Shown here piece after piece: positions 1 to 13,716 of a DNA stretch of 64,000 bases. Under the pieces are notes generated by a model. The model was not told where the DNA came from, did not search any database, and saw nothing but the letters and a program-made list of their open reading frames with translations. The DNA comes from Vagococcus luciliae. Lineage in GTDB: Bacteria > Bacillota > Bacilli > Lactobacillales > Vagococcaceae. Position 1 is the stretch's first letter, and each line of letters opens with the position of its first letter. The stretch covers positions 499,001 to 563,000 of the forward strand of contig NZ_CP102451.1 of assembly GCF_024637875.1 (NCBI RefSeq). Reading direction: 5' to 3'. The position numbers and the translations under genes were made by a program.

Positions 1-1751
1 ACCCATCAATTGGAGGACCGGCCAAAGGGGTGGTTGTCCGTGAAATTGACGCATTGGGTGGTGAGATGGGACGTAACATTGATAAAACGTATATTCAAAT
101 GCGTATGCTAAATACTGGTAAAGGTCCAGCTGTAAGAGCCCTACGAGCGCAAGCAGATAAACATGCTTATCAATCTGAATTGAAACACACATTAGAAAAA
201 GAAGATAATCTAGTCGTTAAACAAGGTATCGTTGAGAAATTACTAGTTAAAGATGACGTTTGTTATGGTGTTGAGCTGAGTACAGGGACACGATACACAA
301 GTAAAGCAGTTATTATTACTGCTGGTACAGCGCTACGTGGTGAAATTATTATTGGTGAATTGAAGTATTCTTCAGGCCCAAATAACTCATTGCCGTCAAT
401 TGGTTTAGCAAATAACTTAAAAGAAATTGGATTAGAGATAGAACGATTTAAAACAGGGACACCGCCACGAGTAAAATCAAGTACGATTGATTATTCAGTG
501 ACAGAAGAACAACCAGGGGACAAACAACCCAACCATTTTAGTTTTGAAAGCACAGATGATCAGTACCGTACCGATCAATTACCATGTTGGTTAACTTATA
601 CAAACTTAGATACACATACAGTTATTCGCGACAATTTACATCGTGCGCCAATGTTTACAGGGATTGTTGAAGGTGTAGGGGCAAGATATTGTCCATCTAT
701 TGAAGATAAAATCGTTCGCTTTAGTGATAAACCTCGTCACCAAATCTTTTTAGAACCAGAAGGAGAACATACTGAAGAAGTCTATGTTCAAGGTCTGTCA
801 ACTTCATTACCAGAAGATGTCCAAAAAGAGATGGTTCAAAGCATTGAAGGATTGGAAAAAGCGAAAATTATGCGTAGTGGTTATGCGATTGAGTATGATG
901 TCGTTGTGCCCCATCAATTACGTCCAACACTTGAAACAATGAAGATTTCAGGTCTTTATACAGCAGGACAAACTAATGGAACATCAGGGTATGAAGAAGC
1001 GGCTTGTCAAGGATTAATGGCAGGAATAAATGCTGCTTTAAAAATACAAGGCAAAGAACCATTTATTTTAAAAAGAAGTGATGCGTACATTGGAGTATTA
1101 ATCGACGATTTGGTAACGAAAGGAACAAATGAACCTTATCGACTGCTAACATCTCGTGCAGAGTATCGTTTACTATTACGTCATGATAACGCTGATTTAC
1201 GTTTAACAGAGATGGGACATGAGATTGGATTGGTTGATGAATTACGTTTCAATCAATACCAAGAGAAAAAAGAGATGGTAGAAAGTGAATTGAAACGTTT
1301 AGGAAAAATTCGTTTGAAACCAACAAAAGACATTCAAGCATTTTTAGAAGAAAAAGAATTGGCTCCACTAAAAGATGGAATTTTAGCACGCGATTTTCTA
1401 AAACGCCCTGAAATTACTTATCGTGATTTGAGTCAATTTATACCAAAACCTGAAAAACAATTACCTCGTTATGTGATTGAACAAGTAGAAATTCAAGTGA
1501 AGTATGAAGGATATATTAAAAAAGCAAAAGATAAAGTTGAAAAATTAAAGCGTATGGAAGCAAAACGTATCCCAGAAAATATTGATTATAAAGCAATAAA
1601 CAGCTTAGCAACAGAAGCAGTTCAAAAATTAGAAAAAATCCGCCCAGAAACAATTGCACAAGCAAGTCGAATAAGTGGCGTTAATCCTTCAGATATAAGC
1701 ATTTTGATGGTTTATATCGAACAAGGGAAAATAGCAAAAATCAAAGAATAA
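1..1751 (+). CDS. mnmG: tRNA uridine-5-carboxymethylaminomethyl modification enzyme MnmG (5' end outside window)
   Basis: MnmG (GidA) works with MnmE to put the cmnm5 group on U34 of tRNAs, using FAD, NADH and a methylene-folate. The window opens inside the gene: the reading frame is open from base 3 and begins PSIGGPAKG, so roughly 50 N-terminal residues including the FAD Rossmann motif are missing. Both GidA signatures are present: [14 protein letters not shown] near 690 and [13 protein letters not shown] near 965. The last residues are not the native ones. An element integrated in the 3' end of the gene supplies the terminal codons ggg aaa ata gca aaa atc aaa gaa taa; the displaced host end is at 10105-10152. 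The downstream partner in this gene order, rsmG, is now 9 kb away because of the insertion. Identification is certain; the C-terminal exchange is read directly from the sequence. Confidence 0.97.
1713..1741 (+). other. Left attachment site attL (mnmG 3' end)
   Basis: This 29-base stretch matches 10105-10133 with two mismatches. The longest identical block is TATATCGAACAAGG (1713-1726 and 10105-10118), the likely crossover region. It encodes the [10 protein letters not shown] tail of MnmG, so integration keeps the reading frame and only changes the last residues. Confidence 0.8.
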
Positions 1752-1800: not shown

Positions 1801-1827
1801 TTGACTACGATATTGACTACGGTTTTA
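1801..1827 (+). repeat. Left integrase arm-type repeat
   Basis: This 27-base sequence is repeated exactly and in the same orientation at 9980-10006. Internally it holds TTGACTACG twice with a 12-base period. It lies 75 bases inside attL and its last three bases are the int stop codon. In the excised circle the two copies would flank the core on either side, as expected for the arm sites bound by the N-terminal domain of lambda/Tn916-type integrases. Confidence 0.65.
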
Positions 1828-3003
1828 GAAATTCATATAGCTAGCAAATAATTCTGTTGTTTCATTCTGTTTAGTGGGCGTGACCATTACGTATATATCA
1901 GTCGTAACTTTTGTGTTTTTATGTCCCAATCGTTGAGACACGTCTTTAATGCTGGCTCCTGATTCAAATAATAAAGATGCATTTGTTTTTCTAAAATCAT
2001 GAACCTTGATTATTTTCATTTTTGGAAAATTCCTTTTAACCTTATTCATAACTTGATTTGGATAAGACTTATATAGATATTGTTGTTCACGATCTAATAC
2101 AGAATTACAAAATACCACATTGTCTGAAAAATTATCTTCTCTAATTCCTAGAGCGAATTTTTCTCTGATGATGTGGTTTTTCCATTCTCTGAGTATCTTG
2201 CTAGTCCTATCGTCCATTTTAATGATTCTATTGGAAGATTCTGTTTTGGTTGAGTTGACCACTAAACTACCATCTTGCAGCTCTACTAATGTTTTATTGA
2301 TGGTAATAGTTTTATTAATAAAATCTATATCTTTCCAAAGCAGAGCCATACACTCGCCTTTCCTTAGTCCTAAAAATGCTAATATTCTAAAAAAAGTATA
2401 TGCTCGTTTATCATTTAGCTTTTCTAAACATTTAAAGAATTGTTTTAGTTCTTCTTTAGTATAAAAGCTCTCTGACACGTCCTTAGGTGCTTTGTTTTTC
2501 TGTTTAGGTGTAATAGTCCTAATCATGGGGTTATCGTCTATTACGTTGATTAGAATGCCATATTTGAATACCATGTTTATATAGGTTTTCATTTGCTTGT
2601 ATGTAGCTAGTTTTTCAGACCATTCATTTAAACATTTTTGACAGAATAACGGTGTGATTTTAACGAGCGGCATTTCTCCCATTTTTGGTAGTATATGATT
2701 AGTAAAGTATTGCCTTATTCTTTGTATAGTGGTATTTTTTATATCTTTTGAGTGTTGTTCAAACCATACTTCATATAATTGGTTAAATGTCTTTATACCC
2801 TTAATATCATTGTTTTGTTGAAGTCCATTTTTTTCTATATCAAGTAAAAGTCTTGATATAGAAATTTGGGCTTCTTTTTTTGTAGAGAAATTTCTTCTTG
2901 TTGTTCTTTTTTCTTTACCAGTAATTGGATCAATACCAAGATATACTTTATACATGTATGCCTTAGTACCGTCTTTTTTTGTATATGATTTTATTTGTGC
3001 CAT
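1825..3003 (-). CDS. int: Tyrosine recombinase (integrase) of the element
   Basis: This 392-residue phage-type integrase catalyses site-specific integration and, with an excisionase, excision. Residues 13-60 resemble the AP2-like arm-binding domain of Tn916-type integrases, 70-165 the SAM-like core-binding domain, and 180-380 the catalytic domain. The catalytic set is complete: R214 (GLRKGE), K253 (TKTESSNR), H335 and R338 (HDFRKT), H361 (LGHKNT) and the nucleophile Y371 (DIYVMV). It is transcribed leftward behind the repressor, with a 56-base gap. An AGGAGG lies upstream of the ATG at a rather long spacing of 12. In the integrated state it runs convergent to mnmG. In the circular form its transcript would cross attP and meet the terminator at 9930-9959. 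Confidence 0.95.
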   Translation of the reverse strand: MAQIKSYTKKDGTKAYMYKVYLGIDPITGKEKRTTRRNFSTKKEAQISISRLLLDIEKNGLQQNNDIKGIKTFNQLYEVWFEQHSKDIKNTTIQRIRQYFTNHILPKMGEMPLVKITPLFCQKCLNEWSEKLATYKQMKTYINMVFKYGILINVIDDNPMIRTITPKQKNKAPKDVSESFYTKEELKQFFKCLEKLNDKRAYTFFRILAFLGLRKGECMALLWKDIDFINKTITINKTLVELQDGSLVVNSTKTESSNRIIKMDDRTSKILREWKNHIIREKFALGIREDNFSDNVVFCNSVLDREQQYLYKSYPNQVMNKVKRNFPKMKIIKVHDFRKTNASLLFESGASIKDVSQRLGHKNTKVTTDIYVMVTPTKQNETTELFASYMNF

Positions 3004-3030
3004 TCTAAATTAATTCCTCCTCATGTTACA

Positions 3031-3044
3031 GCTGAGGGGCATGA
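3031..3044 (+). repeat. GCTGAGGGGCATGA repeat, copy 1
   Basis: The 14-base sequence GCTGAGGGGCATGA lies between the int and repressor genes. It recurs exactly at 4278-4291 and, inverted with two mismatches, at 9959-9972. All three copies are intergenic. The role is unknown; a site for an element-encoded DNA-binding protein is possible. Confidence 0.5.
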
Positions 3045-3059
3045 GTGGAGGTAATTTAA

Positions 3060-3608
3060 TTAGTCTAAGCTATCAATATATTTATTTAATTCATTTATAA
3101 TTTTATCTCTTGCTTGAATCAAATCATCTTTATCAGATTCACTATCAATAAAGTCTGTTAAGACGTTTGTAACATCTTTAAAAAATTGGTATTTATAATC
3201 ATTATTAGATTTATCAAAACTCTTTAAAAAAATAGCAATATCGTATAAGTCTAGAGTATTGAGTGTAGAGAAATCAAAATTAGATATGTAATTTACACTG
3301 TCTATATATTGTTTATTTGCTTCATTATTTAGATTGTTAACTACATCATTTAATTTATCATTTAGACCAGAAAAAACATCAAGTTCTTTACCATATAAGA
3401 GATAACTCATGGAGACTTTTCCTATTTCTGCTATTTGTTTTAGACGTGAAGTATTTGGTACAGAGATACCCCTTTCCCATCTGGACACAATACTATCGCT
3501 AGCCACAGGATCAAATTTTTTTCCGAAGTCTTTCATAGTCATACTATTTTGAATTCTAATTGCTTTAATTCGTTGACCTATGGATTTTTTATCAAGATTA
3601 TTTTTCAT
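3060..3608 (-). CDS. CI-like helix-turn-helix repressor
   Basis: This 182-residue protein has an N-terminal Xre-family HTH at about residues 10-68 (MTMKDFGKKF, then SIVSRWERGISVPNTS). The C-terminal part is helical and acidic and does not show the Ser-Lys LexA/S24 autopeptidase of SOS-inducible CI repressors. That is the pattern of satellite master repressors such as Stl, which are relieved by a helper-phage protein rather than by RecA; applying it here is inference. It is divergent from the Cro-like gene, with both promoters and two operator copies between them. The start is the ATG behind AGGAGG (CTCCT on the plus strand at 3621). Confidence 0.88.
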   Translation of the reverse strand: MKNNLDKKSIGQRIKAIRIQNSMTMKDFGKKFDPVASDSIVSRWERGISVPNTSRLKQIAEIGKVSMSYLLYGKELDVFSGLNDKLNDVVNNLNNEANKQYIDSVNYISNFDFSTLNTLDLYDIAIFLKSFDKSNNDYKYQFFKDVTNVLTDFIDSESDKDDLIQARDKIINELNKYIDSLD

Positions 3609-3636
3609 TATTTATATATCCTCCTGAGAATAAAAT

Positions 3637-3665
3637 AGCATACATTATAAAAAAAATCTACGCAA
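3637..3665 (-). promoter_or_regulatory. Leftward repressor promoter
   Basis: On the minus strand TTGCGT (3660-3665) and TATGCT (3637-3642) are 17 bases apart, upstream of the repressor. The -35 box lies inside operator copy 1, so operator occupancy would affect this promoter. Confidence 0.55.
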
Positions 3666-3672
3666 AACGACG
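3659..3672 (+). promoter_or_regulatory. Operator copy 1 (TACGCAAAACGACG)
   Basis: This is a variant of the sequence found at 3722-3735 and 3965-3978 (consensus ACGYAAAACGAC). It covers the -35 region of the leftward promoter. Binding by the repressor or Cro-like protein is inferred from position and repetition. Confidence 0.55.
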
Positions 3673-3680
3673 AAAAAGTA

Positions 3681-3709
3681 TTGACAACCAATTATAAAAT
3701 CATTATACT
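3681..3709 (+). promoter_or_regulatory. Rightward early promoter
   Basis: TTGACA (3681-3686), a 17-base spacer and TATACT (3704-3709) make a near-perfect sigma-A promoter driving the Cro-like, excisionase and replication genes. It lies between operator copies 1 and 2. Confidence 0.8.
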
Positions 3710-3721
3710 CGATTTATAACC

Positions 3722-3735
3722 GACGTAAAACGACG
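3722..3735 (+). promoter_or_regulatory. Operator copy 2 (GACGTAAAACGACG)
   Basis: This copy lies in the initially transcribed region of the rightward promoter. Seventeen bases here (AACCGACGTAAAACGAC, 3718-3734) are identical to the third copy at 3961-3977. Confidence 0.6.
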
Positions 3736-3757
3736 CAAAAAGAAAAGGAGTGTAATA

Positions 3758-3955
3758 ATGAATAAAATAAAAGGTTATAGAAATATGGCAGGATTAACAC
3801 AAAAAGAAATGAGTGAAGTATTAGGTATTGCTGAAAGCACTTATAGAAAAAAAGAGAAAGGTTATAGTAATTTCAAAGATTATGAAATAAAAAAATTTTC
3901 AGAAGTTATAAACAGGATAAATCCTGATGTTAGCGTTAAAGATATATTTTTTTAA
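3758..3955 (+). CDS. Cro-like small helix-turn-helix protein
   Basis: This 65-residue protein is almost entirely an Xre-type HTH: KIKGYRNMAGLTQKEMSEVL, then GIAESTYRKKEKG. An AAAGGAG stands nine bases before the ATG. It is the first gene of the rightward transcript, divergent from the repressor, which is the position of Cro in lambdoid switches. Its last residues reach position 3955 and a third operator follows at once. It probably counters the repressor or tunes early transcription; this is inferred from size and position. Confidence 0.85.
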   Translation: MNKIKGYRNMAGLTQKEMSEVLGIAESTYRKKEKGYSNFKDYEIKKFSEVINRINPDVSVKDIFF

Positions 3956-3964
3956 TTTAAAACC

Positions 3965-3978
3965 GACGTAAAACGACT
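3965..3978 (+). promoter_or_regulatory. Operator copy 3, before the excisionase-like gene
   Basis: GACGTAAAACGACT lies between the Cro-like stop codon and the ribosome binding site of the next gene. No promoter is obvious here, so binding would act as a roadblock or provide cooperativity with the upstream copies. That role is inference. Confidence 0.5.
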
Positions 3979-3992
3979 TGATGGAGGTTATT

Positions 3993-4271
3993 ATGAATTT
4001 AAAAATTGACCAAATAGAGTTAACCAAAGAATTTTCAAAAAAATTTGTAAGTGATGCAGTAATAGAGTTAAAGCCATTTATTCAAGAGGAAATAAAAAAG
4101 ACTAACCTACCTGAATATATGAGTTTGGGAGAATGTTGCCAGTATATCGGAGTTAGTCGTAATACATTGAAGAAATTTATTGATATGGGTTTAAAAGTAT
4201 TTTCTGTTGATGGTATTCAAAAAATTAGCAAACAAGAAGTAAGAAAATTTATCGAAAATCATAGTATATAA
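3993..4271 (+). CDS. Excisionase-like DNA-binding protein
   Basis: This 92-residue protein has a C-terminal excisionase/MerR-type winged HTH (helix-turn-helix_17 type): YMSLGECCQYIGVSRNTLKK followed by a basic wing and KISKQEVRKFIENH. Such proteins bend DNA to direct the integrase toward excision, or act as regulators. The ATG at 3993 is chosen because GGAGG at 3983-3987 fits it; a TTG/ATG five codons upstream would overlap that site. It is the second gene of the rightward early operon. The residues before the HTH are polar and helical, without a recognisable domain. Confidence 0.75.
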   Translation: MNLKIDQIELTKEFSKKFVSDAVIELKPFIQEEIKKTNLPEYMSLGECCQYIGVSRNTLKKFIDMGLKVFSVDGIQKISKQEVRKFIENHSI

Positions 4272-4277
4272 ACGAAT

Positions 4278-4291
4278 GCTGAGGGGCATGA
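4278..4291 (+). repeat. GCTGAGGGGCATGA repeat, copy 2
   Basis: Exact second copy of the 14-base sequence at 3031-3044, in the gap before the next gene. It is not positioned as a ribosome binding site for that gene, which has its own GGGAG at 4306-4310. Confidence 0.5.
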
Positions 4292-4319
4292 TTGGAATAT
4301 GAAAAGGGAGATTATAAAG

Positions 4320-4577
4320 ATGAATAATAAGAAAATTGGAAAAGAATTAGAAGATGCGTTAATGAAAATATCGTTTATTCAAAATAATTTGTTTTTTGCA
4401 GCAGAAGTATTTGATGATGTCAAATCAAAAGAAAGTGATACACGAGAACAGTGCAATTTAAAACTTTATGATTTTGAAAGAATAGGCAGAAAAATGGAAA
4501 CTACATTTAATTATGTTGATTTTGAATTAGAAGAATTATTTCAAATATTGAATGAATGTATAAACTCACTAGATTAG
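4320..4577 (+). CDS. Hypothetical element protein, small acidic helical
   Basis: I do not recognise this 85-residue protein. It is predicted wholly helical, acidic at the C-terminus (FELEELFQILNECINSL), and has no signal peptide or membrane segment. The ATG at 4320 follows GGGAG (4306-4310) at a good spacing; an in-frame ATG at 4299 has no convincing ribosome binding site. It lies between the excisionase-like and primase genes, separated from the latter by 10 bases, so it is probably co-transcribed with replication. Small proteins at this position in satellites can be replication or helper-interference factors, but nothing in the sequence settles it. Confidence 0.7.
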   Translation: MNNKKIGKELEDALMKISFIQNNLFFAAEVFDDVKSKESDTREQCNLKLYDFERIGRKMETTFNYVDFELEELFQILNECINSLD

Positions 4578-4587
4578 GAGTGATAGT

Positions 4588-5436
4588 ATGAACGATTTTA
4601 GCACATTAGATATAGCTTTAAAATACGCTGAATTAGGTTTTCCCATTTTGCCATTAGTCCCAAATAATAAGATGCCAGTAAAGAGTGAAGATTTTTCTAG
4701 AGGTTTTCACACTGCGACAACTGACCAAAGTATCATTGCAGATTATTGGTTGAGTAGTGAACAGGCTATTTCTTCCAATATTGGTATTAGAACAGGAAAA
4801 GAAAGTGCGTTGGTTGTTTTAGATATTGATGTCCATAAAGAAGATGGATTTAAATCATTGGAAACTTTAGAAAATCATTTTGGCAAGCTACCCGAAACTT
4901 TTAGAGTAAAGACAGCATCAGGAGGGGAACATATCTATTTTAAATATCCTGATGGCGTAACAATAGATAGGCAGATAAATAGATTTAAAGGAATAGATAT
5001 TATTTCTGATAACTCATATATAGTAGCTCCACCAAGTATTGTAAAAAATAGTCCTTACCAAGTTATTAGTGGGGATATAACCATATTGGCAGAATTACCT
5101 GATTTTTTATTAAAAGCTCTGTCAATTTCTAGGGATAATCATTCAACTCAAAAAAATAGAATGCCTCAGAATGCTCCTGAGAACACTCGAAAAGTGAAGT
5201 ACACTGCAACATTTTTAAAAGATATGGTAGCAGGGGCAACTGAGGGAAACAGGAATGATTTTTTAATGAGATTTGTTGCTAAGTGTTTGTCTTTAGGAAC
5301 AGATTTAGAAACGATTTACACGTTACTTTTGGTAGTAAATGAAAATTTTATAGACGCTCCTTTATCTGATGATGAAGTAAACACCATATTTAAAAGTATG
5401 GTTAAAAAAGAAACTAGGAGGGGGGTTATTGTTTGA
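4588..5436 (+). CDS. Bifunctional primase-polymerase (Prim-Pol)
   Basis: This 282-residue archaeo-eukaryotic-primase-fold protein primes and extends DNA in phages, plasmids and satellites. The motifs are clear: DxD at D79-D81 (VVLDIDVHKEDG), the S..H motif at S111-H115 (SGGEHIYF) and the third acidic motif at D137 (GIDIIS, then YIVAPPS). Residues 205-280 look like the PriCT-1 C-terminal domain. AGGAGTG precedes the ATG. The next gene, the helicase, overlaps it by four bases, so the two are translationally coupled and act as one replication module with the iterons at 6865-7088. Confidence 0.93.
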   Translation: MNDFSTLDIALKYAELGFPILPLVPNNKMPVKSEDFSRGFHTATTDQSIIADYWLSSEQAISSNIGIRTGKESALVVLDIDVHKEDGFKSLETLENHFGKLPETFRVKTASGGEHIYFKYPDGVTIDRQINRFKGIDIISDNSYIVAPPSIVKNSPYQVISGDITILAELPDFLLKALSISRDNHSTQKNRMPQNAPENTRKVKYTATFLKDMVAGATEGNRNDFLMRFVAKCLSLGTDLETIYTLLLVVNENFIDAPLSDDEVNTIFKSMVKKETRRGVIV

Positions 5437-6836
5437 AACACATACCTGATGAAACAAAAGAATTTATAAAAGAAAATCAAGAATTATTAAATCAAAAAAA
5501 AGAGACGGAACCTGATTGGATATATTTTAAAGAAAATGGCGATAGTAAAGTACTACCTAATAAATTAGGCTATGCCGTTATGAAAGAAATACCAATTATT
5601 AGAACTGGTTCATTGACTTATGGAGCAAGATTTCAAGCCGATAAAGGTATTTGGCGAGTAGATGATTTAAATGACTTTTTAGATGCTTATATCACTGAGA
5701 AATTAGAAAGTGTTGGTAAATGGAGTACAAAAACATTATCTGATGTTAAACGATTTATCTTGATAAAAAGTTATGACACAACTACCAAAGATAATCCATT
5801 TAATAATAGCAATCCTAATCTAGTTAGTTTTCAAAATGGAACATACAATTTTAAAACCGACAAATTAGAGCCACATGATCCACAGAATTATATTTTTCAG
5901 TCTCATCAATATGCGATTGACACAGAGGACAAAAAAAGACCAGTCAAGACTTTAGAATGGCTTAAAGACTTAACTGGAGACGATTTATCAGTAATACATT
6001 TATCCGAAATGATAGGTTATTGCTTTTACAGAAGCTATGAACCTTTTCAAGCTATCTTTATTTTACATGGAAAAGGTAAAAACGGCAAGAGTGTATTTAT
6101 TAATCACATTATAAAAATGTTGAATGATGAAAATGTATCGACAGTTAATTTATCAGATTTAGCTAATAAGCAAAATAGATTTGCAACAAGTCAATTATTT
6201 GCAAAAAATGCCAATCTGTTTGCAGAGATTGAAGATAGTTTTATTTCTCAAACAGGTCTCATAAAGTCTTTGACTGGTGGTGATTATTTGATGGCAGAAA
6301 GAAAAGGTAAAGATGGCTTTAATTTTAAAAACTTTGCCAAATTGATATTCTCTGCGAATAAATTACCAAGTTGGTCAGACAGTACAGACGGTTGGTTGAG
6401 ACGTTTAAATGTCATTCCTTTTACAAGAGTTATAGATGATGAATTTAAAAATAAACATGATTTAAAGGCGATAGAGGAAGAAATACCAGTGTTTACTCTT
6501 TATTGTATGCGAATGTTTTATAAAGCCCTAGAGCGTGGCTATTTCACGATTTCAGAGCCTATGAAGATAGCCAAAGATGATTGGATAAAAGATATAGATC
6601 ATGTTTCTAGATTTATAGAAGAATATTGCATCATTGATAAAGAAAGTAAAGCAGGAGAATCAAGTAAGAAAATTTACGATAAATATACTGATTTTTGTTT
6701 TGATGAAAATTTAAAAGCACTGTCTCAACCTAAATTTACTAAAGATTTAGAAAAATATGGCATCTATAAAAAGAAACAAAGCATTTCAGGTATCAGGGTA
6801 TGGCGATATATTGGGTTAATTTTACAAGAAGAATAA
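5433..6836 (+). CDS. P4/D5-type phage primase-helicase (SF3 ATPase)
   Basis: This 467-residue replicative helicase belongs to the phage P4 alpha C-terminal/D5 group. Walker A GKGKNGKS is at residues 213-220, an acidic Walker B-like FAEIED at 263-268, and the sensor motif SANK at 307-310; the C-terminal 90 residues look like a winged-helix DNA-binding domain. The start is TTG within the TTGA overlap with the primase-polymerase stop, behind AGGAGG at 5416-5421. In P4, primase, helicase and origin recognition are in one polypeptide; here the primase is separate, as in many Gram-positive satellites. The C-terminal domain is the likely reader of the iterons that start 29 bases downstream. Confidence 0.93.
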   Translation: MKHIPDETKEFIKENQELLNQKKETEPDWIYFKENGDSKVLPNKLGYAVMKEIPIIRTGSLTYGARFQADKGIWRVDDLNDFLDAYITEKLESVGKWSTKTLSDVKRFILIKSYDTTTKDNPFNNSNPNLVSFQNGTYNFKTDKLEPHDPQNYIFQSHQYAIDTEDKKRPVKTLEWLKDLTGDDLSVIHLSEMIGYCFYRSYEPFQAIFILHGKGKNGKSVFINHIIKMLNDENVSTVNLSDLANKQNRFATSQLFAKNANLFAEIEDSFISQTGLIKSLTGGDYLMAERKGKDGFNFKNFAKLIFSANKLPSWSDSTDGWLRRLNVIPFTRVIDDEFKNKHDLKAIEEEIPVFTLYCMRMFYKALERGYFTISEPMKIAKDDWIKDIDHVSRFIEEYCIIDKESKAGESSKKIYDKYTDFCFDENLKALSQPKFTKDLEKYGIYKKKQSISGIRVWRYIGLILQEE

Positions 6837-6864
6837 TTTTTCAGTGTCAGGAATTACAAAAACA

Positions 6865-7088
6865 TTGGACACATTGGACAGGTGTTTAAAAATGTTGATA
6901 TATCAAGGATAACAGGGTATTGAAATTAAAAATTATTGACAAAAGGTTGGACACCTAAATATAAAAAGTTGGACAGGTGTCCAATGGTGTCCAAGTAGGT
7001 GTCCAAGTAAATGTCGAAAATAAAAGAAAAATATAGTCTACAAACCTTTATATATCAAGGTTTAAAAGATAGTGTCCAAACTGTCCAA
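6865..7088 (+). repeat. Nine-copy TTGGACA/TGTCCAA iteron cluster, probable replication origin
   Basis: Four TTGGACA copies (6865, 6874, 6947, 6969) are followed by five inverted TGTCCAA copies (6978, 6988, 7000, 7073, 7082). The central pair forms TTGGACAGGTGTCCAA (6969-6984). Between copies 7 and 8 lies the hairpin AAACCTT/AAGGTTT (7042-7063), and ATATATCAAGG occurs twice (near 6898 and 7050). The 358-base stretch 6837-7194 holds no gene. Iterons beside the replication genes are typical of SaPI and P4 origins, so this is the probable ori, with A+T-rich DNA between for unwinding. Confidence 0.75.
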
Positions 7089-7194
7089 TGATTTCTAAGT
7101 TGTTACTACTAGAAAAAAAGGAGGACAGCTAAATTAATTTAATTCGAGATAAACCTTATAACTATAAAAATAAACAAATTGAAAGGAAATGAGT

Positions 7195-9087
7195 ATGAAA
7201 GAAAAATTTTATCAGATAGAAACTGAGGGAGCAAAAGCCACGCTATACATATATGGAGATATTGTTGATGATAGTCTCGAATATAGTAACGAGGTTAGTG
7301 CAAATGATATAAAAAATGAGTTGTTAGGACTTAGGGATATTAAAGAAATAGAGGTAAGGCTCCAAAGTTATGGAGGTAGCGTGTTTAGTGGTGTAGCAAT
7401 ATACAATATGCTAAAAACTCATAAAGCCTTTATAACAGTTCATATAGATGGTGTAGCTTGCAGTATAGCCACAGTTATAGCAATGGCAGGGGATAAGGTT
7501 ATCATGCCACAAAATAGCATGATGATGATACATAATCCAATGATAGGTGCATCTTATGGAAATGCTAGTGAGTTGAGAAAGATGGCAGATGATTTGGATA
7601 AAATAAGAGAAAGCTCTGTATCTGCTTATTTAAATAAATCAGGAGGAAAAATTAATCGTAATGAGTTGATAGATTTGTTAGATAAGGAAACGTGGTTGTC
7701 TGCTGATGAATGTTATAGATATGGTTTTTGTGATGAAGTTGTTCAAAGTGTTGAATTAGTAGCAAAATTTAAAGAATCAAAAGTAGTTAATGAATTAAAA
7801 AATAATCCAATAAAATTAATGGAACAGAAAGAGGAAAATAATATGGTAATGAAATTGAATGAAAAAAGTGAAGATATCAAAAATAAGATGATGGAATTTA
7901 TTAATGAGCACAAAGATATTCCTGAAACAAAATTGATAGAAGAATATCCTTATTATAAAGAATTAAAGGAAAAATATGAGAATAAACTGGAAGATGAACA
8001 ATTATGGGAAAAAGAAAAAGAAAGAGAGTTGGAACAAAAAGGTATGATCAATATTAAAAATAAAGAAGAACAACATTTTTATCATAATGGCGAGAAAGTA
8101 CAAATATTAGCACCTGAACAAAAATATTTTACTAATCAAAGTGGATATGAAAGAAAACAATTTTCTAATATGAGCATCGGTAAACTGGTTAAAGGTATGG
8201 CGACTGGTAAATGGCAAGGGGCAGAAAAAGAACAAGAGGTAGTTGCTGCTAATCGAGATGGTAGTGGAGGTGTATTAATTCCAGCTCCTTTATCTAATGA
8301 GTTAATTAATATGGTTCGTGCACAATCTGTATTAATGACTGCAGGAGCAAGAACAGTACCGATGGAATCATCTACTCTTGTATTTGCTAAACAAGTGGGA
8401 GATATTCAACCACATTGGAAAGCAGAGGGAGAAAAGATTAATGAGACTGATGCCGACTTTGTTCCAGTTAAATTTGAAGCAAAAACTTTAGTTGGTATGT
8501 CTGATATAACTATTGAGTTATTAGAAGATGCATTGAACATTGATGAGATTGTTACTCAAAGTATCGTAAACTCATTAGCATTAGAATTAGATAGAGCAGG
8601 TCTGCTAGGAGCAGGGACAGAAGTAGAGCCTTTAGGAATCTATAATCGAGACGGTATTCAAAAACAAAAAGTAGGAAAATCATTAGATAGCTATAAAGAC
8701 TTTAGTCAAGCAGTAACATCAATTCTATCTGCTAATGGTACACCAAATGGAGTTATCTATTCACCTAGAACTTATGGCGAGTTAGATGCGTTAGTAGATG
8801 CTAGTGGGCAACCTTTAAACGCTCCTAAGAGTTATGATAATTTAACTCATAAATTGACCACTACACAAGTACCAAATGATTTAGGAGATAAAAAAGATGG
8901 AAGTTTTGCCATTGTGGGCGACTTTACTAAGTTATGGTACGGAGTTAGAACAGGAGTAACTTTAGAAGTAACTAGAGTGGGTGGAGATGCATTCAGTAAC
9001 CTTAAATTTAAGATTAGAGCGTATTTACGTGCAGATGTACAAACAATTCATGAACCGCACTTTGTTATCTTAGATGATATTAAATAG
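7195..9087 (+). CDS. Fused ClpP-type prohead protease and HK97-type major capsid protein
   Basis: This 630-residue polyprotein has three parts. Residues 1-195 are a ClpP-like S14 prohead protease: GGSVFSGVAIYN, nucleophile S90 in GVACSIAT and H113 in MMMIHNP. Residues 205-300 are a charged, helical, Lys/Glu-rich linker like the scaffolding (delta) domain of HK97 gp5. Residues 325-630 are an HK97-fold capsid protein (GSGGVLIPAPLSNELI, VPMESSTLVF, then a C-terminal LKFKIRAYLRADVQTIHEPH). In phages the protease matures the capsid after assembly. ATG 7195 is chosen over ATG 7189 because AAGGA (7183-7187) fits only the former. It is the only morphogenesis gene of the element; portal and terminase are absent. 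Confidence 0.93.
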   Translation: MKEKFYQIETEGAKATLYIYGDIVDDSLEYSNEVSANDIKNELLGLRDIKEIEVRLQSYGGSVFSGVAIYNMLKTHKAFITVHIDGVACSIATVIAMAGDKVIMPQNSMMMIHNPMIGASYGNASELRKMADDLDKIRESSVSAYLNKSGGKINRNELIDLLDKETWLSADECYRYGFCDEVVQSVELVAKFKESKVVNELKNNPIKLMEQKEENNMVMKLNEKSEDIKNKMMEFINEHKDIPETKLIEEYPYYKELKEKYENKLEDEQLWEKEKERELEQKGMINIKNKEEQHFYHNGEKVQILAPEQKYFTNQSGYERKQFSNMSIGKLVKGMATGKWQGAEKEQEVVAANRDGSGGVLIPAPLSNELINMVRAQSVLMTAGARTVPMESSTLVFAKQVGDIQPHWKAEGEKINETDADFVPVKFEAKTLVGMSDITIELLEDALNIDEIVTQSIVNSLALELDRAGLLGAGTEVEPLGIYNRDGIQKQKVGKSLDSYKDFSQAVTSILSANGTPNGVIYSPRTYGELDALVDASGQPLNAPKSYDNLTHKLTTTQVPNDLGDKKDGSFAIVGDFTKLWYGVRTGVTLEVTRVGGDAFSNLKFKIRAYLRADVQTIHEPHFVILDDIK

Positions 9088-9102
9088 ATATAATATAGTA
9101 GG

Positions 9103-9134
9103 GAGACGACTTTAAAGAGTTGTCTCTTTTTTTT
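9103..9134 (+). terminator. Rho-independent terminator after the capsid gene
   Basis: GAGACGACT (9103-9111) pairs with AGTTGTCTC (9118-9126) around a six-base loop, followed by eight T. It ends the rightward operon before the cos-like region. Confidence 0.85.
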
Positions 9135-9136
9135 AT

Positions 9137-9238
9137 CCCCCCCTCGGAATAAAATGGTTTATTTTTTCTAATCTGGGAACCGGTGCTGGGGGTCTTTTTC
9201 CCAGATTTAACCTCGCACGTGAGAGTTTTTCCTGAGAG
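9137..9238 (+). other. Candidate cos-like packaging site
   Basis: A run of seven C (9137-9143) followed by TCGGAATAAAA, then AATCTGGGAA (9170-9179) and its exact inverse TTCCCAGATT (9198-9207) around CCGGTGCTGGGGG, then CGCACGTGAGAG. The G+C-rich, C- and G-tract layout in non-coding DNA resembles the cos regions that precede small terminase genes in Gram-positive HK97-like phages. A satellite carrying it could be cut and packaged by the helper's terminase. The resemblance is from memory of such sites, not from alignment; a plain terminator-like hairpin is the alternative. Confidence 0.45.
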
Positions 9239-9248
9239 GAGATAAATT

Positions 9249-9257
9249 TGTTATAAT
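9249..9257 (+). promoter_or_regulatory. Extended -10 promoter of the cargo gene
   Basis: TGTTATAAT (TG-n-TATAAT) lies 27 bases before the cargo ATG. No good -35 is present, which is common for extended -10 promoters. It would give the cargo gene its own expression, independent of the repressed early operon. Confidence 0.6.
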
Positions 9258-9284
9258 TTTATATAAAAGGAGGGGGTAAAAACT

Positions 9285-9926
9285 ATGGACTTAGACACAA
9301 TAAAAGAGACATTAACATTTTTAGGAAGCTCAGGAGCAATACTATTTATCCCAAAACTGTATTTAGATTATAAGAAACAGAAGAGATTACAAGAAGATCA
9401 GTTACAGGATAATAAAGTATTGCAGGAAAACCAACACAGATTAGATAAAGAATTATCTGAATTGAAAAGTAAACAAGATAGTATGATTTTTATGACAAAC
9501 AGGCAATATGAAAAAGAGTTTGATATATATTTAGAGATATTTCAATCGATAGGAAATTGTCAGAAATATTTATTAAAAGGGATTGACTCATTTGAAATGT
9601 TTGAGGAAAATATTGAACAATCAAATGTATTAATGAAAAATGCTGGTAATAAATTAGAATCAGAAATACACGAATTAAATTATTTAAACAAACGATATTC
9701 TCCTTTCATAAAAAAAAGTGTTAGTAATTTATTAAGTGAATTGATTATAGTATTTAGATCACTTTTAAAAGAAATAGAAGAAAAGCATCGATTATTAGGC
9801 TTGGAACAAATTTTAAATTTCGAAGCACCCAATCAAATAGATGAATTGATACAAAAACAAAATGAATGTATAGAAATGTTGGAAAGTAATATTAGAGATT
9901 ATTTAAATCAAATAAGAACAATATAA
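9285..9926 (+). CDS. Element cargo: membrane-anchored coiled-coil protein of unknown function
   Basis: This 213-residue protein has one hydrophobic segment at about residues 11-27 (FLGSSGAILFIPKLYL), then a charged coiled coil (30-70) and the motif KQDSMIFMTNRQYEKE at 62-77, followed by a helical domain to the end. The protein at 10242-10850, just beyond the right attachment site, has the same plan and the same motif (KQDSFIFMTQKQYEKE, and later Y.PFI), so the two are paralogues. It has its own promoter and a strong AGGAGGGGG. Position as the last, independently transcribed gene of a satellite fits a cargo role such as phage interference or superinfection exclusion, but I do not recognise the family and this is a guess from context. 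Confidence 0.8.
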   Translation: MDLDTIKETLTFLGSSGAILFIPKLYLDYKKQKRLQEDQLQDNKVLQENQHRLDKELSELKSKQDSMIFMTNRQYEKEFDIYLEIFQSIGNCQKYLLKGIDSFEMFEENIEQSNVLMKNAGNKLESEIHELNYLNKRYSPFIKKSVSNLLSELIIVFRSLLKEIEEKHRLLGLEQILNFEAPNQIDELIQKQNECIEMLESNIRDYLNQIRTI

Positions 9927-9929
9927 TTA

Positions 9930-9959
9930 AAAAATACCTACCTGATTAATCAGATAGGT
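9930..9959 (-). terminator. Leftward terminator at the right end of the element
   Basis: On the minus strand ACCTATCTGAT pairs with ATCAGGTAGGT and is followed by ATTTTTT. On the plus strand no T run follows, so the terminator points left. In the integrated state nothing nearby is transcribed leftward; in the excised circle it would stop the int transcript after it crosses attP. Confidence 0.6.
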
Positions 9960-9972
9960 CATGCCCCAAAGC
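9959..9972 (-). repeat. GCTGAGGGGCATGA repeat, inverted degenerate copy 3
   Basis: The reverse complement reads GCTTTGGGGCATGA, two mismatches from copies 1 and 2. It lies between the leftward terminator and the right arm repeat. Confidence 0.4.
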
Positions 9973-9979
9973 TAAGTTT

Positions 9980-10006
9980 TTGACTACGATATTGACTACG
10001 GTTTTA
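9980..10006 (+). repeat. Right integrase arm-type repeat
   Basis: Exact copy of 1801-1827 (27 bases, with TTGACTACG twice), 98 bases inside the right attachment site. Confidence 0.65.
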
Positions 10007-10104
10007 TTTAAATAAATGATAATCAATGAGTAGTGTTTTTTATAAATCTTATTAAATCAACATGTATGACAACTAAAAACAATGATTGATAGTGAAAAAT
10101 TGTA

Positions 10105-10133
10105 TATATCGAACAAGGTAAAATAGCAAAGAT
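10105..10133 (+). other. Right attachment site attR
   Basis: Matches attL (1713-1741) at 27 of 29 bases. The 14-base identical block TATATCGAACAAGG is the likely crossover region. Sequence to the right of it is host DNA. Confidence 0.8.
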
Positions 10134-10223: not shown

Positions 10224-10241
10224 TGAGAAGAGGTGACTATT

Positions 10242-10850
10242 ATGGCATATTTGACAATAGGATTGGCTATATTAGCAGTAATAATTAGTGGTGTATCAAT
10301 TTATTTAACCTATCAAATGCAGCGAACAATACAAAGCAAACAAATAAAGCAAGATAGAGAACTAGCCAAAATGTTAGCAAAACAAGATAGTTTTATTTTT
10401 ATGACACAAAAGCAGTATGAAAAAGAGTATCATTTGTTTTGGAATTTATTTGATTTATTGCAACAAACGATAGATAGGACAAGGAGCATCAAAGGAAGCT
10501 TACAGTTGTTAAAAGAAAATAGTGAACCAACGTTAGAAGAAACATACGTTAAATTAATTCAAGATGGAGTAGTCAGAAGTAGTGAATCACTTAATGAGTT
10601 AGATAATCAGTTGAATCAATATGAACCATTTATCCAAGAAATGCTATTTAATGAATTTAAGCAAATAATTGAAGACTTACGTGATTTTCAGCAACGACGT
10701 TTTAATTATTTTAGCTATGAATCAGTAACGAATGAAACAATTGAAGACTTTTTAAATGATACATTATCTAGTATAAATGAAAGTGAAGCAATTCGTAAAA
10801 ATATAGTTATTTTTTTACGCAAGTATTTTGAAAACAGTCGTGTAAATTAG
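10242..10850 (+). CDS. Membrane-anchored coiled-coil protein, paralogue of the element cargo
   Basis: This 202-residue protein has an N-terminal membrane segment (residues 2-25, YLTIGLAILAVIISGVSIYL), a coiled coil, the motif KQDSFIFMTQKQYEKE and a helical domain with NQYEPFI. It shares this layout and motif with the cargo gene 300 bases upstream on the other side of attR. ATG 10242 is chosen because AGGTG fits it; an upstream GTG at 10233 has no ribosome binding site. It lies between the native mnmG terminator and parS, with its own promoter. It may be a normal resident of the mnmG-rsmG gap, or cargo left by an earlier element at the same site. Function unknown. Confidence 0.8.
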   Translation: MAYLTIGLAILAVIISGVSIYLTYQMQRTIQSKQIKQDRELAKMLAKQDSFIFMTQKQYEKEYHLFWNLFDLLQQTIDRTRSIKGSLQLLKENSEPTLEETYVKLIQDGVVRSSESLNELDNQLNQYEPFIQEMLFNEFKQIIEDLRDFQQRRFNYFSYESVTNETIEDFLNDTLSSINESEAIRKNIVIFLRKYFENSRVN

Positions 10851-10853
10851 AAA

Positions 10854-10869
10854 TGTTTCACGTGAAACA
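10854..10869 (+). promoter_or_regulatory. parS centromere site
   Basis: TGTTTCACGTGAAACA is a perfect match to the ParB/Spo0J parS consensus. It lies near parA-parB and is the nucleation point for ParB spreading in chromosome segregation. Confidence 0.95.
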
Positions 10870-10891
10870 TTTTATAAATAAAAAACAAGAA

Positions 10892-10928
10892 AAAGTAAAC
10901 TTATTCGGTATTTAAGTTTACTTTTTTT
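10892..10928 (+). terminator. Bidirectional terminator
   Basis: AAAGTAAACTTA (10892-10903) pairs with TAAGTTTACTTT (10913-10924) around a nine-base loop, with T on one side and A on the other. It separates the membrane-protein gene from rsmG. Confidence 0.8.
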
Positions 10929-10950
10929 TATTAAAACTGACGTATTTGCA

Positions 10951-10979
10951 TTGAACTTTTAAGATAGATACGATAAAGT
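10951..10979 (+). promoter_or_regulatory. Candidate promoter of the rsmG-parA-parB operon
   Basis: TTGAAC (10951-10956), 17-base spacer, TAAAGT (10974-10979), about 50 bases before rsmG. The -10 box is only four of six. Confidence 0.5.
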
Positions 10980-11002
10980 GGACATATCCGTGAAACACTG
11001 AT

Positions 11003-11018
11003 TGTTTCACATGAAGGA
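11003..11018 (+). promoter_or_regulatory. Degenerate parS-like site
   Basis: TGTTTCACATGAAGGA keeps 12 of 16 parS positions and overlaps the rsmG ribosome binding site; a half-site GTGAAACA lies at 10990. ParB binding here would link segregation to expression of the operon, but this is speculative. Confidence 0.3.
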
Positions 11019-11026
11019 GAATAAAA

Positions 11027-11746
11027 ATGACACCAGAAGAGTTTAAAAAGAGTTTGGAAAAACAGGGTATCGTGTTGAGTGATAAACAAATGAATCAGTT
11101 TGAATTGTATTTTAAACGCCTTGTTGAATGGAACGAAAAAATAAATCTAACCGCAATTGTAGACAAAAAAGAAGTGTACTTAAAACACTTTTATGACTCA
11201 TTAACGTTAGCGTTTGAACGTGATATGACAAAAGAGGAAGTAACTTTATGTGATGTCGGATCGGGTGCAGGGTTTCCAAGTATTCCTTTGAAAATTGTTT
11301 TCCCTAATATGACTATTTCGATTGTTGATTCGTTGAATAAACGTATTAAATTTTTAACGGAATTAACAACAGAATTGGGGTTAGATAATGTTAATTTGTA
11401 TCATTCAAGAGCGGAAGACTTTGGACAAAATAAATTATATCGAGAGTCTTTTGACTTAGTGACAGCTCGAGCTGTTGCAAGATTGAATGTGTTGGCAGAG
11501 TTGTGTTTACCTTTAGTTAAACAAGGTGGACAATTTTTAGCAATGAAAGCAGCTAAGAGTGAAGAAGAATTATTAGAAGCTAAAAAAGCAATAGCAACAC
11601 TAGGTGGTAAAGTTGTATCAGAACATGAGGTTAGTTTACCTATAACAGAAGATGAACGCTTTATTATTGAAATAGATAAAAAGAAAGTCACACCAAATAA
11701 ATATCCTCGTAAAGCCGGATTACCTAATAAAAAACCATTAATATAA
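11027..11746 (+). CDS. rsmG: 16S rRNA (guanine527-N7)-methyltransferase RsmG
   Basis: RsmG (GidB) methylates N7 of G527 in 16S rRNA with S-adenosylmethionine; its loss gives low-level streptomycin resistance. The 239-residue protein has the family length, with the SAM-binding loop [13 protein letters not shown] (about residues 76-88) and the acidic strand end SIVDS, then SRAEDFG. The ATG follows GAAGGAG. It heads a cluster with parA, 51 bases downstream, and parB. In relatives it directly follows mnmG; here the insertion and a membrane-protein gene separate them. Confidence 0.97.
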
Positions 11747-11797
11747 AAGATGCCTGATAAGTCATTAGACATAGTGAGAAAAAAGGAGGGATCTATT

Positions 11798-12568
11798 ATG
11801 GCTAGGATTATTGCCGTAGCAAATCAAAAAGGTGGCGTAGGAAAAACGACCACAACAGTTAATCTAGGAGCGTGCTTAGCATACTCAGGTAAAAAAGTAT
11901 TATTAGTTGATATGGATGCACAGGGAAATGCTACAAGTGGTATCGGCATTAGAAAAGCAGATGTATCCCAAGATATTTATGATGTGTTAGTGAATGAAGT
12001 TCCTATTAAGGAAGTCATTCAACCAACTAATCGAGAAGGAATGGATATTGCTCCAGCAACGATTCAATTATCGGGAGCAGAAATTGAATTAACGTCTATG
12101 ATGGCAAGAGAGTCACGTTTAAAATTAGCGTTGCAAGAAGTAGAAGACACTTATGATTACGTTTTAATTGATTGCCCACCATCATTAGGACATTTAACGA
12201 TTAATTCATTTACTTCCAGTGATTCTATTTTAATTCCCGTGCAATGTGAATATTATGCATTAGAAGGTCTTAGCCAACTATTAAATACTATTCGATTAGT
12301 ACAAAAACACTTTAATCCAGATTTGCGAATTGAAGGAGTTTTATTAACGATGTATGATGCCAGAACCAATTTAGGCTCAGAAGTAGTAGAAGAGGTTAGA
12401 ACTTATTTTAGAGAACGTGTATATGATACTATTATTCCAAGAAATGTTAGGCTGTCTGAAGCACCAAGCCATGGGAAAGCGATTATTGATTACGATCCAA
12501 AATCAAGAGGTGCAGAAGTGTATCAAGCATTAGCAAAGGAAGTGATGAATCGTGAGCAAGCAGAATAA
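11798..12568 (+). CDS. parA: Chromosome partitioning ATPase ParA (Soj)
   Basis: This 256-residue ParA/Soj ATPase acts with ParB on parS in origin segregation and in control of initiation. The deviant Walker A motif KGGVGKTT is at residues 11-18, DMDAQGN marks Walker A', and LIDCPPS Walker B. ATG 11798 is used because AAGGAGG stands at 11783-11789 and translation from it gives the standard MARIIAVANQKGG start; the frame is open further upstream without support. It overlaps parB by 17 bases. Confidence 0.97.
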   Translation: MARIIAVANQKGGVGKTTTTVNLGACLAYSGKKVLLVDMDAQGNATSGIGIRKADVSQDIYDVLVNEVPIKEVIQPTNREGMDIAPATIQLSGAEIELTSMMARESRLKLALQEVEDTYDYVLIDCPPSLGHLTINSFTSSDSILIPVQCEYYALEGLSQLLNTIRLVQKHFNPDLRIEGVLLTMYDARTNLGSEVVEEVRTYFRERVYDTIIPRNVRLSEAPSHGKAIIDYDPKSRGAEVYQALAKEVMNREQAE

Positions 12569-13436
12569 AGGATTGGGACGAGGAATTGATGCATTATTCC
12601 AAGATTTATCGACAATTGAAGAAGTAGATATTCAGTCAGAGGCTGTTCAAGATATTCCGTTAGCAGAATTAAGACCTAATCCTTATCAACCACGTAAAAC
12701 ATTTGATGAAAAAGCTCTAGAAGAGTTAGCTTCATCGATTAAACAGTCTGGTGTATTTCAGCCAATTATTGTGAGAAAATCATCAGTAAAGGGTTATGAA
12801 ATTATTGCGGGAGAACGTCGTTTTAGAGCGTCTAAATTAGCAGGAAAAGAAACGATACCTGCCATTATTCGTGAGTTTGATGAAGAACGAATGATGCAGA
12901 TTGCCGTATTAGAAAACTTACAACGTGAAGATTTAAATCCTCTTGAAGAAGCAGAAGCATATGAGATGTTGATGAAAAATTTGGATTTAACACAGGTAGA
13001 ACTGTCTGAAAAATTAGGTAAGAGTCGTCCATATATCGCAAATTATCTACGTTTATTGACATTACCGAAAGTAGTTAAAGAATTAGTACAAAAAGAGTCA
13101 CTTTCAATGGGACAGGCGAGAACATTACTTGGATTGAAGAAAAAAGAAGATATTTTAGTCGTAGCCAATCGCGCGATTAAAGAGGGGCTCACAGTCCGAC
13201 AATTAGAACAAATTGTCACACAAATGAATGATATTCCTAAAAAAGAGCTTGTTAAAAAGAAAGAGCAGCAACCGAAGCCATATTATATCCGTGAAAGTGA
13301 AGAGCGGTTAATGGATAAGTTTGGCACAAGTGTTCATATCCAAGAAAAAGAAGGCAAGGGAAAAATAGAAATCGAATATCTTTCTTCTTCAGATTTAACA
13401 CGTATTTTAGATTTATTAGATATTGAATTTGATTAA
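12552..13436 (+). CDS. parB: Chromosome partitioning protein ParB (Spo0J)
   Basis: This 294-residue ParB is a CTP-dependent DNA clamp loaded at parS. The order is: N-terminal ParA-interacting stretch (KGLGRGIDALF), CTP-binding domain with NPYQPRK and GERRFRA (residues 43-93), central HTH (LTQVELSEKLGKSRPYIANY, about 141-160), and a C-terminal dimerisation domain. It starts at GTG inside the end of parA. The perfect parS at 10854 is 1.7 kb upstream. A Noc paralogue, found near here in Bacillus, is not in this window. Confidence 0.97.
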   Translation: MSKQNKGLGRGIDALFQDLSTIEEVDIQSEAVQDIPLAELRPNPYQPRKTFDEKALEELASSIKQSGVFQPIIVRKSSVKGYEIIAGERRFRASKLAGKETIPAIIREFDEERMMQIAVLENLQREDLNPLEEAEAYEMLMKNLDLTQVELSEKLGKSRPYIANYLRLLTLPKVVKELVQKESLSMGQARTLLGLKKKEDILVVANRAIKEGLTVRQLEQIVTQMNDIPKKELVKKKEQQPKPYYIRESEERLMDKFGTSVHIQEKEGKGKIEIEYLSSSDLTRILDLLDIEFD

Positions 13437-13530
13437 TTGTACCTATAAAAATAGGATAAATGAGTATGAATCTGATAAAATTATGTTAAGATATATCACG
13501 TAGAAAATGAATCAAGGAGGGACGTTTAGT

Positions 13531-13716
13531 ATGTACGATTTAGGCTATATAGTCGAAATGAAAAAACCACATGCGTGTCAAACAAATCGTTGGGAGATTA
13601 TTCGTATGGGAATGGATATCAAAATTAGATGCTTAAACTGTCAGCATATTGTGATGATGCCCCGACGTGAATTTGATAAGAAGATGAAAAAGGTATTAGT
13701 GAAAAAAGAAGATTAA
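13531..13716 (+). CDS. DUF951 family small protein
   Basis: This 61-residue protein matches DUF951 (YyzM-like): VEMKKPHACQTNRWEIIRMG, then a CxxC pair in RCLNCQHIVM and RREFDKK. The three cysteines hint at metal binding. ATG 13531 follows AAGGAGG at the right spacing; an earlier in-frame ATG at 13507 would overlap that site. It sits between parB and ychF, its usual place in Firmicutes. Function is not established; its basic character has suggested nucleic-acid contact, which is inference. Confidence 0.85.
   Translation: MYDLGYIVEMKKPHACQTNRWEIIRMGMDIKIRCLNCQHIVMMPRREFDKKMKKVLVKKED

Follow-up and report, generated by a model that had tools for sequence, protein, structure and literature searches.

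Within a 64,000-nucleotide stretch of the Vagococcus luciliae genome (assembly GCF_024637875.1, contig NZ_CP102451.1, positions 499,001 to 563,000 of the forward strand; hereafter the window, from whose first letter positions are counted unless another locus is named), the region 1713–10132 is, by its sequence, an integrated phage satellite. A single open frame that encodes a ClpP-type head protease, a linker and an HK97-type major capsid protein (MCP) is the only structural gene detected in it, and this frame is followed by a cos-like packaging site of a type shared with phages. It is highly probable that the satellite is packaged through this site and rather probable that protease and shell come from the satellite itself and terminase, portal and tail from a helper phage; with the same moderate confidence, its own MCP is expected to form most or all of the shell.

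The frame runs without interruption from 7189 to 9087 of the forward strand (632 codons), position 7195 being the second ATG, whose Shine–Dalgarno match is the stronger one (−6.2 kcal/mol vs −3.1 at 7189). Pfam recognizes CLP_protease in residues 34–187 (109.7 bits) and Phage_capsid in residues 360–628 (116.5 bits), while the NCBIfam models NF045542 (“head maturation protease, ClpP-related”) and TIGR01554 (major_cap_HK97) are matched with 213.2 and 134.6 bits at cut-offs of 120 and 27.5, respectively, the latter identifying an MCP of the HK97 fold; furthermore, 14 sequences of structurally solved head proteins are retrieved at E up to 0.01 with a profile of the MCP relatives. The two domains are joined by a variable, charged linker. 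A first-pass annotation of this DNA had placed protease, linker and capsid in one frame and had named S90 and H113, counted from 7195, for the protease; both statements hold, these residues corresponding to Ser92 and His115, which are conserved without exception in five homologues, as are Asp165 and Glu167, so that the predicted catalytic Ser and His are kept. Fusion of a head protease to an MCP is as such already known (family NF045540), a model that the island protein matches with 202.6 bits against a cut-off of 475 and best over residues 17–239; fused-length relatives are found at 24–29% identity in viral and genome contigs.

The same annotation spoke of a capsid precursor; the frame is open throughout, but the long protein is probably not its only product. 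Met219 is the only Met that is invariant among the five known islands (see below) within the weakly conserved linker, and the sequence AAAGAGG lies a few bases 5′ of it in all five, with duplex energies (−5.9 to −7.2 kcal/mol) comparable to those of the proper start, Met3 in the window numbering (−5.9 to −8.6 kcal/mol). If every column is scored by its poorest energy among the five sequences, 219 comes 11th among 589 and all ten higher columns are non-Met; GAG is used in all five sequences at 2 of 25 invariant Glu columns, one of which, residue 215, is within the Shine–Dalgarno-like sequence. The evidence for an internal start is suggestive, with the caveat that these genes are purine-rich, 5% of the codon positions reaching −6.9 kcal/mol and M106 and M392 also having strong upstream matches. 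A start at Met219 would yield an MCP precursor of 401–418 residues, similar in length to the separate MCPs of the related elements described below (423 residues in genome G085, 439 in locus L304 and 443 in plasmid pCD630). From the invariant Met and its conserved Shine–Dalgarno-like sequence it can be surmised that the frame probably gives two products, the full-length protein and an MCP precursor of normal length. The ClpP and MCP genes of L304 are separate, with an overlap of eight bases, an arrangement that may represent the state before fusion.

The island occupies 8,392 bp between mnmG and rsmG, at the 3′ end of mnmG, and its ends are repeats of this 3′ end at 1713 and 10105, of which 14 bases are exact and 26 of 28 alike by eye. 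An att-bounded island with its own tyrosine integrase (1825–3003), a divergent pair of regulators and its own primase/replication module, and with neither lysis nor tail genes, has the hallmarks of a phage-inducible chromosomal island (PICI). Ten window proteins were scanned, namely the fusion, the eight other island open reading frames (ORFs) and orf205 outside attR, short antisense ORFs being left out; no structural family beyond the fusion was matched, with the weak exception of the cro-like protein, which touches phrog_309, a small-terminase family, with 21.9 bits via its helix-turn-helix (HTH), its repressor match being higher (41.4 bits). The earlier description of a satellite-type island with a capsid precursor as its only structural gene and without detectable terminase, portal or tail is thereby borne out, and the same gene is open in five genomes.

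A single scan of a genome collection yielded four further islands: L113 in Enterococcus ureilyticus, L114 in Enterococcus sp. HY326, L115 in Enterococcus sp. JM4C and L116 in Vagococcus sp. DIV0080. Their proteins align over residues 1–632 or 5–632 with 74–77% identity, and the gene order of the window island is repeated in all four, although in the three Enterococcus islands the protein in the place of the primase has only partial similarity (30–36% over 70–102 residues). L113, L115 and L116 share the mnmG site; L114 lies elsewhere and its integrase differs (36% identity). The islands measure 8392 (window), 9052 (L113), 8712 (L114, whose ends are defined by a 16-base repeat only), 8833 (L115) and 8521 bp (L116). 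When 398 genomes of the class were searched by profile with E limited to 1e-25, the window's own match was the only one, and an order-wide MCP search of 395 genomes at E up to 1e-20 returned five, i.e., the window, G007 (L116), G217 (L113), G085 and G213. When 38 of the other ORFs of L113–L116 were compared with PHROGs, 56 families were matched and the 25 of these 56 that were listed are regulatory, replicative, integrative or of unknown function; ten unknown ORFs of the sister islands, scanned singly, gave no structural match, a large terminase subunit (TerL) was detected in none of the 22 kb loci L113–L116 with our own TerL profile, and PF03354 had no match across the whole genomes of the L113 and L116 carriers.

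The five islands were found by means of the fusion gene itself, and its presence in all of them is therefore an effect of selection of the sample. Within the protein, conservation is highest in the MCP part (88–97% identity among the five islands), followed by ClpP (65–94%) and the linker (44–86%), and the ratio of non-synonymous to synonymous substitution rates (dN/dS) is 0.017–0.048 for the MCP part in 9 of 10 pairs (one saturated), 0.040–0.119 for ClpP in 5 of 10 (five saturated) and 0.064–0.326 for the linker in 9 of 10 (one saturated). The fusion gene is thus under purifying selection and is not a remnant.

On the 3′ side of the frame the motif CCCCC-(about 30)-ACCGGTG-NNN-GGGG is present in all five islands, L115 and L116 deviating from the stricter form GGGAACCGGTG. 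An exact scan, in which 26 spans were allowed, found the strict pattern in 78 viral contigs, with a span of 56 bases in 52 and of 55 bases in 18 of them; TerL is present in 44/44 of those contigs that have at least 2.3 kb downstream, and a ClpP-type protease ORF begins 3.2–4.1 kb after the site in 31/78. Streptococcus phage Javan370 has, immediately ahead of the gene that precedes TerL, a stretch matching the L114 site at 74% (E 0.01), with portal and Clp protease following TerL. Among the 395 genomes of the order, 14 contain the strict pattern and none the reversed control pattern. Two of the 14 are known satellites (G000, G217), and the remaining 12 loci consist of ten phages with the order HNH-cos-TerS-TerL-portal-ClpP-MCP (TerS, small terminase subunit), one remnant (L327) and one Streptococcus satellite (L329). 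Gene calls in these 12 loci relied on L302 and Javan370 proteins for reference; L334 and L302 are one and the same phage, a single phage type is represented almost identically by L328, L330 and L331, and L332 has its TerL broken into two frames. The island therefore carries the mark of a cos-type satellite, a cos-like site (with predicted cleavage) common to it and to intact, helper-type phages, and this supports packaging by a helper. The nearest relative of the window site is that of a same-genus prophage, L231 = L334 (G015), with 48/64 identical bases; the L113 site matches phage contig L236 at 61/65 and its sibling L115 at 43/65, the MCP parts of L113 and L115 being 97% identical, and the L115 site is likewise closer to a phage (51/65) than to its best sibling (45/63). 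Shuffled sites gave at most 42 matches, in a control that is lenient because only 40 of the 88 phage sites served for each comparison and all of them had been picked for the motif. We read these matches as an apparent exchange of cos with phages in at least one case.

A side observation concerns the helper-type phage L302 (G399, the G015 prophage), in which positions 5097–5552 of the reverse complement, in the interval from HNH to cos, encode an HTH protein that shares 66% identity with the satellite repressor over 62 residues; proteins in the same HNH-cos place of L325 and L326 are 51% and 56% identical to it over 68 residues. The L302 protein may serve as a decoy repressor or take part in packaging and, since other phages have a related HTH protein in the place of TerS or beside HNH, a packaging role is as likely as that of an anti-satellite repressor.

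The MCP domain has 59 matches in 50,697 phage records, the 25 of 59 that were listed being at most 28.8% identical. Among 158 hits of the MCP profile in the loci examined, scores above 460 bits are confined to the five islands, G085 and the pCD630-type elements L193, L194, L303 and L304, in none of which was TerL detected; the next score is 88 bits (L306), followed by at most 55 bits, mostly in loci with TerL. Viral contigs with an MCP alignment, sought with two short peptide patterns only, are four, three of them pCD630-like and one distant. The pCD630-type plasmids of Clostridioides difficile and L304 (7.4–8.3 kb) resemble the island in that their MCP belongs to the same lineage (33–34% identity) and TerL is undetected, L304 having an unfused pair, ClpP followed by MCP; the pCD630-type elements differ from the island in being plasmids with other replication genes. 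The named genes among the nine annotated in pCD630 are those of the MCP, an HNH endonuclease, a DEAD/DEAH helicase and a ribbon-helix-helix protein. Neither the G085 element nor plasmids L193 and L194 yielded the cos motif. A pCD-WTSI1-like element (76% coverage) was reported in 2024 in particle-protected DNA (PMC10993401); no capsid gene was reported for it, so the finding is only a hint.

In G085, a genome from another family, a satellite-like island (L207, about 10837–18550) contains an integrase, regulators and, by eye, an 844-residue protein in the place of replication, together with a stand-alone MCP of 423 residues (47% identity) beside which no protease, TerL or portal was seen. The distant MCP of L306 (5514–6353, 88 bits) lies on a viral contig with integrase-like and, by eye, tape-measure-like genes; TerL was undetected within the 16.9 kb examined, and L306 could be another satellite type. 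We tentatively entertain, at somewhat below even chances, a class of “shell-only” parasites, i.e., integrated satellites and plasmids that use a capsid lineage not used by phages to build, from protease and MCP or from the MCP by itself, an entire shell on a foreign portal, with their packaging site re-tuned to whichever phage is present. If this were so, the pCD630-type plasmids would be particle-borne satellites rather than plain plasmids, which offers a hypothesis for their capsid gene.

If lone capsid genes in satellites are already published, what distinguishes the present island? SaPIbov5 and the other cos-type Staphylococcus aureus pathogenicity islands (SaPIs) with the capsid homologue Ccm resemble the island in being small satellites with a helper-type cos and one HK97 capsid homologue, other particle parts being helper-derived; they differ in length (about 14 kb vs 8.4 kb) and in that no protease was identified in SaPIbov5, whereas the island has a ClpP protease, a long linker and an MCP in one frame. 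In the SaPIbov5 shell Ccm forms the pentamers and the helper capsid protein the hexamers (PMC5052747, PMC8569155). A capsid gene is found in 21/29 reference Gram-negative PICIs (PMC10111431), and PmCI172 and EcCICFT073, like the island, have a major capsid homologue and yet are described as depending on helper particle proteins (PMC6092414, PMC10111431). EcCICFT073, unlike the island, has an extra head decoration gene, the capsid protein of 11capE belongs to the helper's own family, and the available texts mention no head protease for Gram-negative PICIs with a capsid gene (PMC6092414, PMC10111431). The suggestion of the first-pass annotation that the island follows an intermediate strategy gains support from the cos-like site, which that annotation had not noticed, as far as helper packaging is concerned, but the idea has precedents, since other satellites with a lone capsid gene are already known. 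Among the open-access papers listed in literature searches, no Enterococcaceae satellite was found with a protease–MCP frame as its only structural gene and a helper-type cos. What is new here is a cos-like site shared with phages, Met219 in the linker, and an MCP with close relatives found only in elements without detected TerL.

Capsid-forming PICIs (cf-PICIs) are like the island in having their own MCP and their own protease (PMC10690885), but their HNH, TerS, TerL, portal and connectors (average length 14 kb; PMC10803314) were not detected among its nine ORFs, apart from the weak match of the cro-like protein to a TerS family, so that the island does not appear to be one of them. A cf-PICI is present in the same genome at G000:C1:64574–78697 (L196, L197); Pfam identifies Prim-Pol, a VapE-like protein, HNH, TerS, TerL, portal, an S78 protease–MCP fusion, a connector and a head completion protein, and int and cI were identified by eye. 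It shares Prim-Pol replication with the island and differs from it by its S78 protease, as opposed to the ClpP type; the lone-capsid and cf-PICI strategies therefore both occur in one genome. As a helper this cf-PICI is not favored: it owns the genome's only PF03354 terminase (the only TerL family searched) and is without the cos motif.

The Streptococcus satellites Javan376, Javan60 and Javan748 have a “Clp protease-like” gene near their end, and streptococcal satellites are described as devoid of structural genes (PMC6813308). In our hands (L335–L337) the three resemble the island in length (8.6–9.6 kb), in the integrase being first and in having a late ClpP head-type protease, and differ from it in that the neighbors of the protease gave no capsid match. 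The satellite L329 (G066), read on the reverse strand, has a protease identical to that of Javan376 at 7374–8408, no recognized MCP beside it and a cos of the same type as the island at 8961–9016. A lone satellite protease could disturb or retune the helper head, which would be a hypothesis for the Clp protease of the published streptococcal satellites.

In the mechanism that we propose, a matching cos phage growing in the cell would induce a sequence in which the satellite excises and replicates, the HNH, TerS and TerL of the helper cut its DNA at cos and pump it, and the one frame provides the satellite's own protease and MCP precursor (as full-length product and internally started 414-residue MCP). 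These products would build a small shell on the helper portal, the protease would trim it and a helper tail would complete the particle. Unit-length cos packaging of about 8.4–9 kb should require a small head, and the own MCP would provide it. For an own shell speak the retention of the protease, the MCP being the most conserved part, and the absence of detectable similarity to the MCPs of likely helpers. Were the shell made of satellite MCP alone, the fit between portal and shell would have to be so loose that a capsid lineage foreign to the helper could be placed on its portals, which bears on how head assembly of tailed phages starts and what fixes the size of the head. The islands being small, their hosts of the Enterococcaceae type and the likely helpers nameable by their cos, the question is directly testable.

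Several observations weigh against the own-shell, helper-packaged particle just described. The L114 and L116 sites agree with each other at 53/65, better than with any phage site (at most 50/64 and 48/61), and a good match is easier to come by among 88 phage sites than among four siblings; even the looser motif is confined to the satellite in all five carriers, so that no resident helper is seen; the L114 frame stops 12 residues early and one genome, G213, has no more than a decayed piece; and the gap in MCP-profile scores arises partly by construction, the profile having been built from the same lineages. Sequence distance from helper MCPs is moreover no proof of replacement, since Ccm, which forms no shells alone, co-assembles with a capsid protein 24% identical to it (PMC5052747, PMC8569155). 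The island MCP might accordingly act as Ccm does, taking some positions of the helper shell, e.g., the pentamers, and forcing a small mixed head in which the protease matures foreign subunits. The cos SaPIs, with a single HK97 homologue and a shared cos, set the precedent (PMC5052747, PMC8569155), and L329, with the same cos type and a ClpP protease without MCP, makes partial interference with the helper head plausible. Such co-assembly nevertheless appears unlikely, if far from negligible, as the satellite MCP had no BLAST match (E up to 1e-3) in any of the 78 cos contigs, many of which are too short to reach the MCP, and shares only 78 of 288 aligned residues, at a negative global score, with the MCP of the phage whose cos is nearest.

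An accessory role, with a capsid gene dispensable for transfer that only disturbs the helper, is suggested by the Gram-negative PICIs, whose capsid genes are common and reported to be unnecessary for transfer (PMC10111431), and by EcCICFT073, which kept interference after deletion of its capsid gene (PMC6092414). We deem it improbable for the island, in view of the strong constraint on both domains, of the occurrence of the gene in all five islands (subject to the sampling effect mentioned above) and of the narrow range of island length (8.4–9.05 kb), which fits a fixed small head. That the frame is a capsid gene surviving by chance in a decayed prophage might be argued from the decayed MCP 3′-end piece beside mnmG in G213; five open copies, including the shortened one of L114, with dN/dS far below 1, the shared cos-like and att sites and the satellite-type integration/replication module leave this explanation with hardly any probability, and on the strength of the dN/dS values and the open copies it is rejected. 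The satellite-built shell on a helper portal is the reading that we retain.

Table 1. Features of the satellite island in the window
Feature	Positions	Strand	Basis or remark
attL side, mnmG 3′ end, direct repeat with 10105	1713..1740	.	14 bases exact
Tyrosine integrase	1825..3003	-	Phage_integrase 73.9 bits; phrog_1 247.4 bits
cI-like HTH repressor, divergent from next gene	3060..3608	-	HTH_3 34.2 bits
cro-like HTH regulator (65 residues)	3758..3955	+	HTH_3 35 bits
HTH/excisionase-like DNA-binding protein	3978..4271	+	phrog_668 54.9 bits
Small ORF	4299..4577	+	without family match
Prim-Pol/PriCT-1 primase	4588..5436	+	Prim-Pol 124.9 bits
D5/P4-type helicase	5433..6836	+	TIGR01613 196.1 bits
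Cluster of direct and inverted TTGGACAC/GTGTCCAA repeats	6859..7088	.	repeat search
ClpP head protease–linker–HK97 MCP frame	7189..9087	+	sole structural gene detected
ClpP-type head maturation protease domain, residues 17–184	7237..7740	+	NF045542 213.2 bits
Internal Shine–Dalgarno-like sequence	7828..7835	+	alike in five islands
Putative 414-residue MCP precursor with internal start at invariant Met219	7843..9087	+	inference
HK97 major capsid domain, residues 360–628	8266..9072	+	PF05065 116.5 bits
cos-like packaging site	9137..9192	+	motif shared with phages; cleavage predicted
Variable last gene; N-terminal membrane segment and coiled coil by eye	9285..9926	+	
attR side, copy of mnmG 3′ end	10105..10132	.	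repeat search

The content of the last-gene position differs between islands. In the window the last gene has no Pfam, NCBIfam or PADLOC match and only a weak one to phrog_26391 (unknown function, 21.4 bits); PADLOC gave 0 matches for six proteins from this position, two of them from the window, one of which lies outside attR. Just beyond attR, the gene at 10233–10850 is an apparent relative of the last gene, and the last protein of L116 resembles the two of them (46% over 84 residues for one, 37% over 93 for the other); the outer gene is perhaps the leftover of an earlier satellite at mnmG. In L116 itself (12979–15671), a further copy of the mnmG 3′ end suggests a tandem second island or a remnant after attR. 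The repeat cluster between helicase and capsid gene is a probable, sequence-predicted replication origin; it is composed of TTGGACA units in the window and in L116 (9660–9900) and of CGAACCA/TGGTTCG units in L113 (9690–9904), so that, judged from these units, the origin repeats appear to switch between sister islands.
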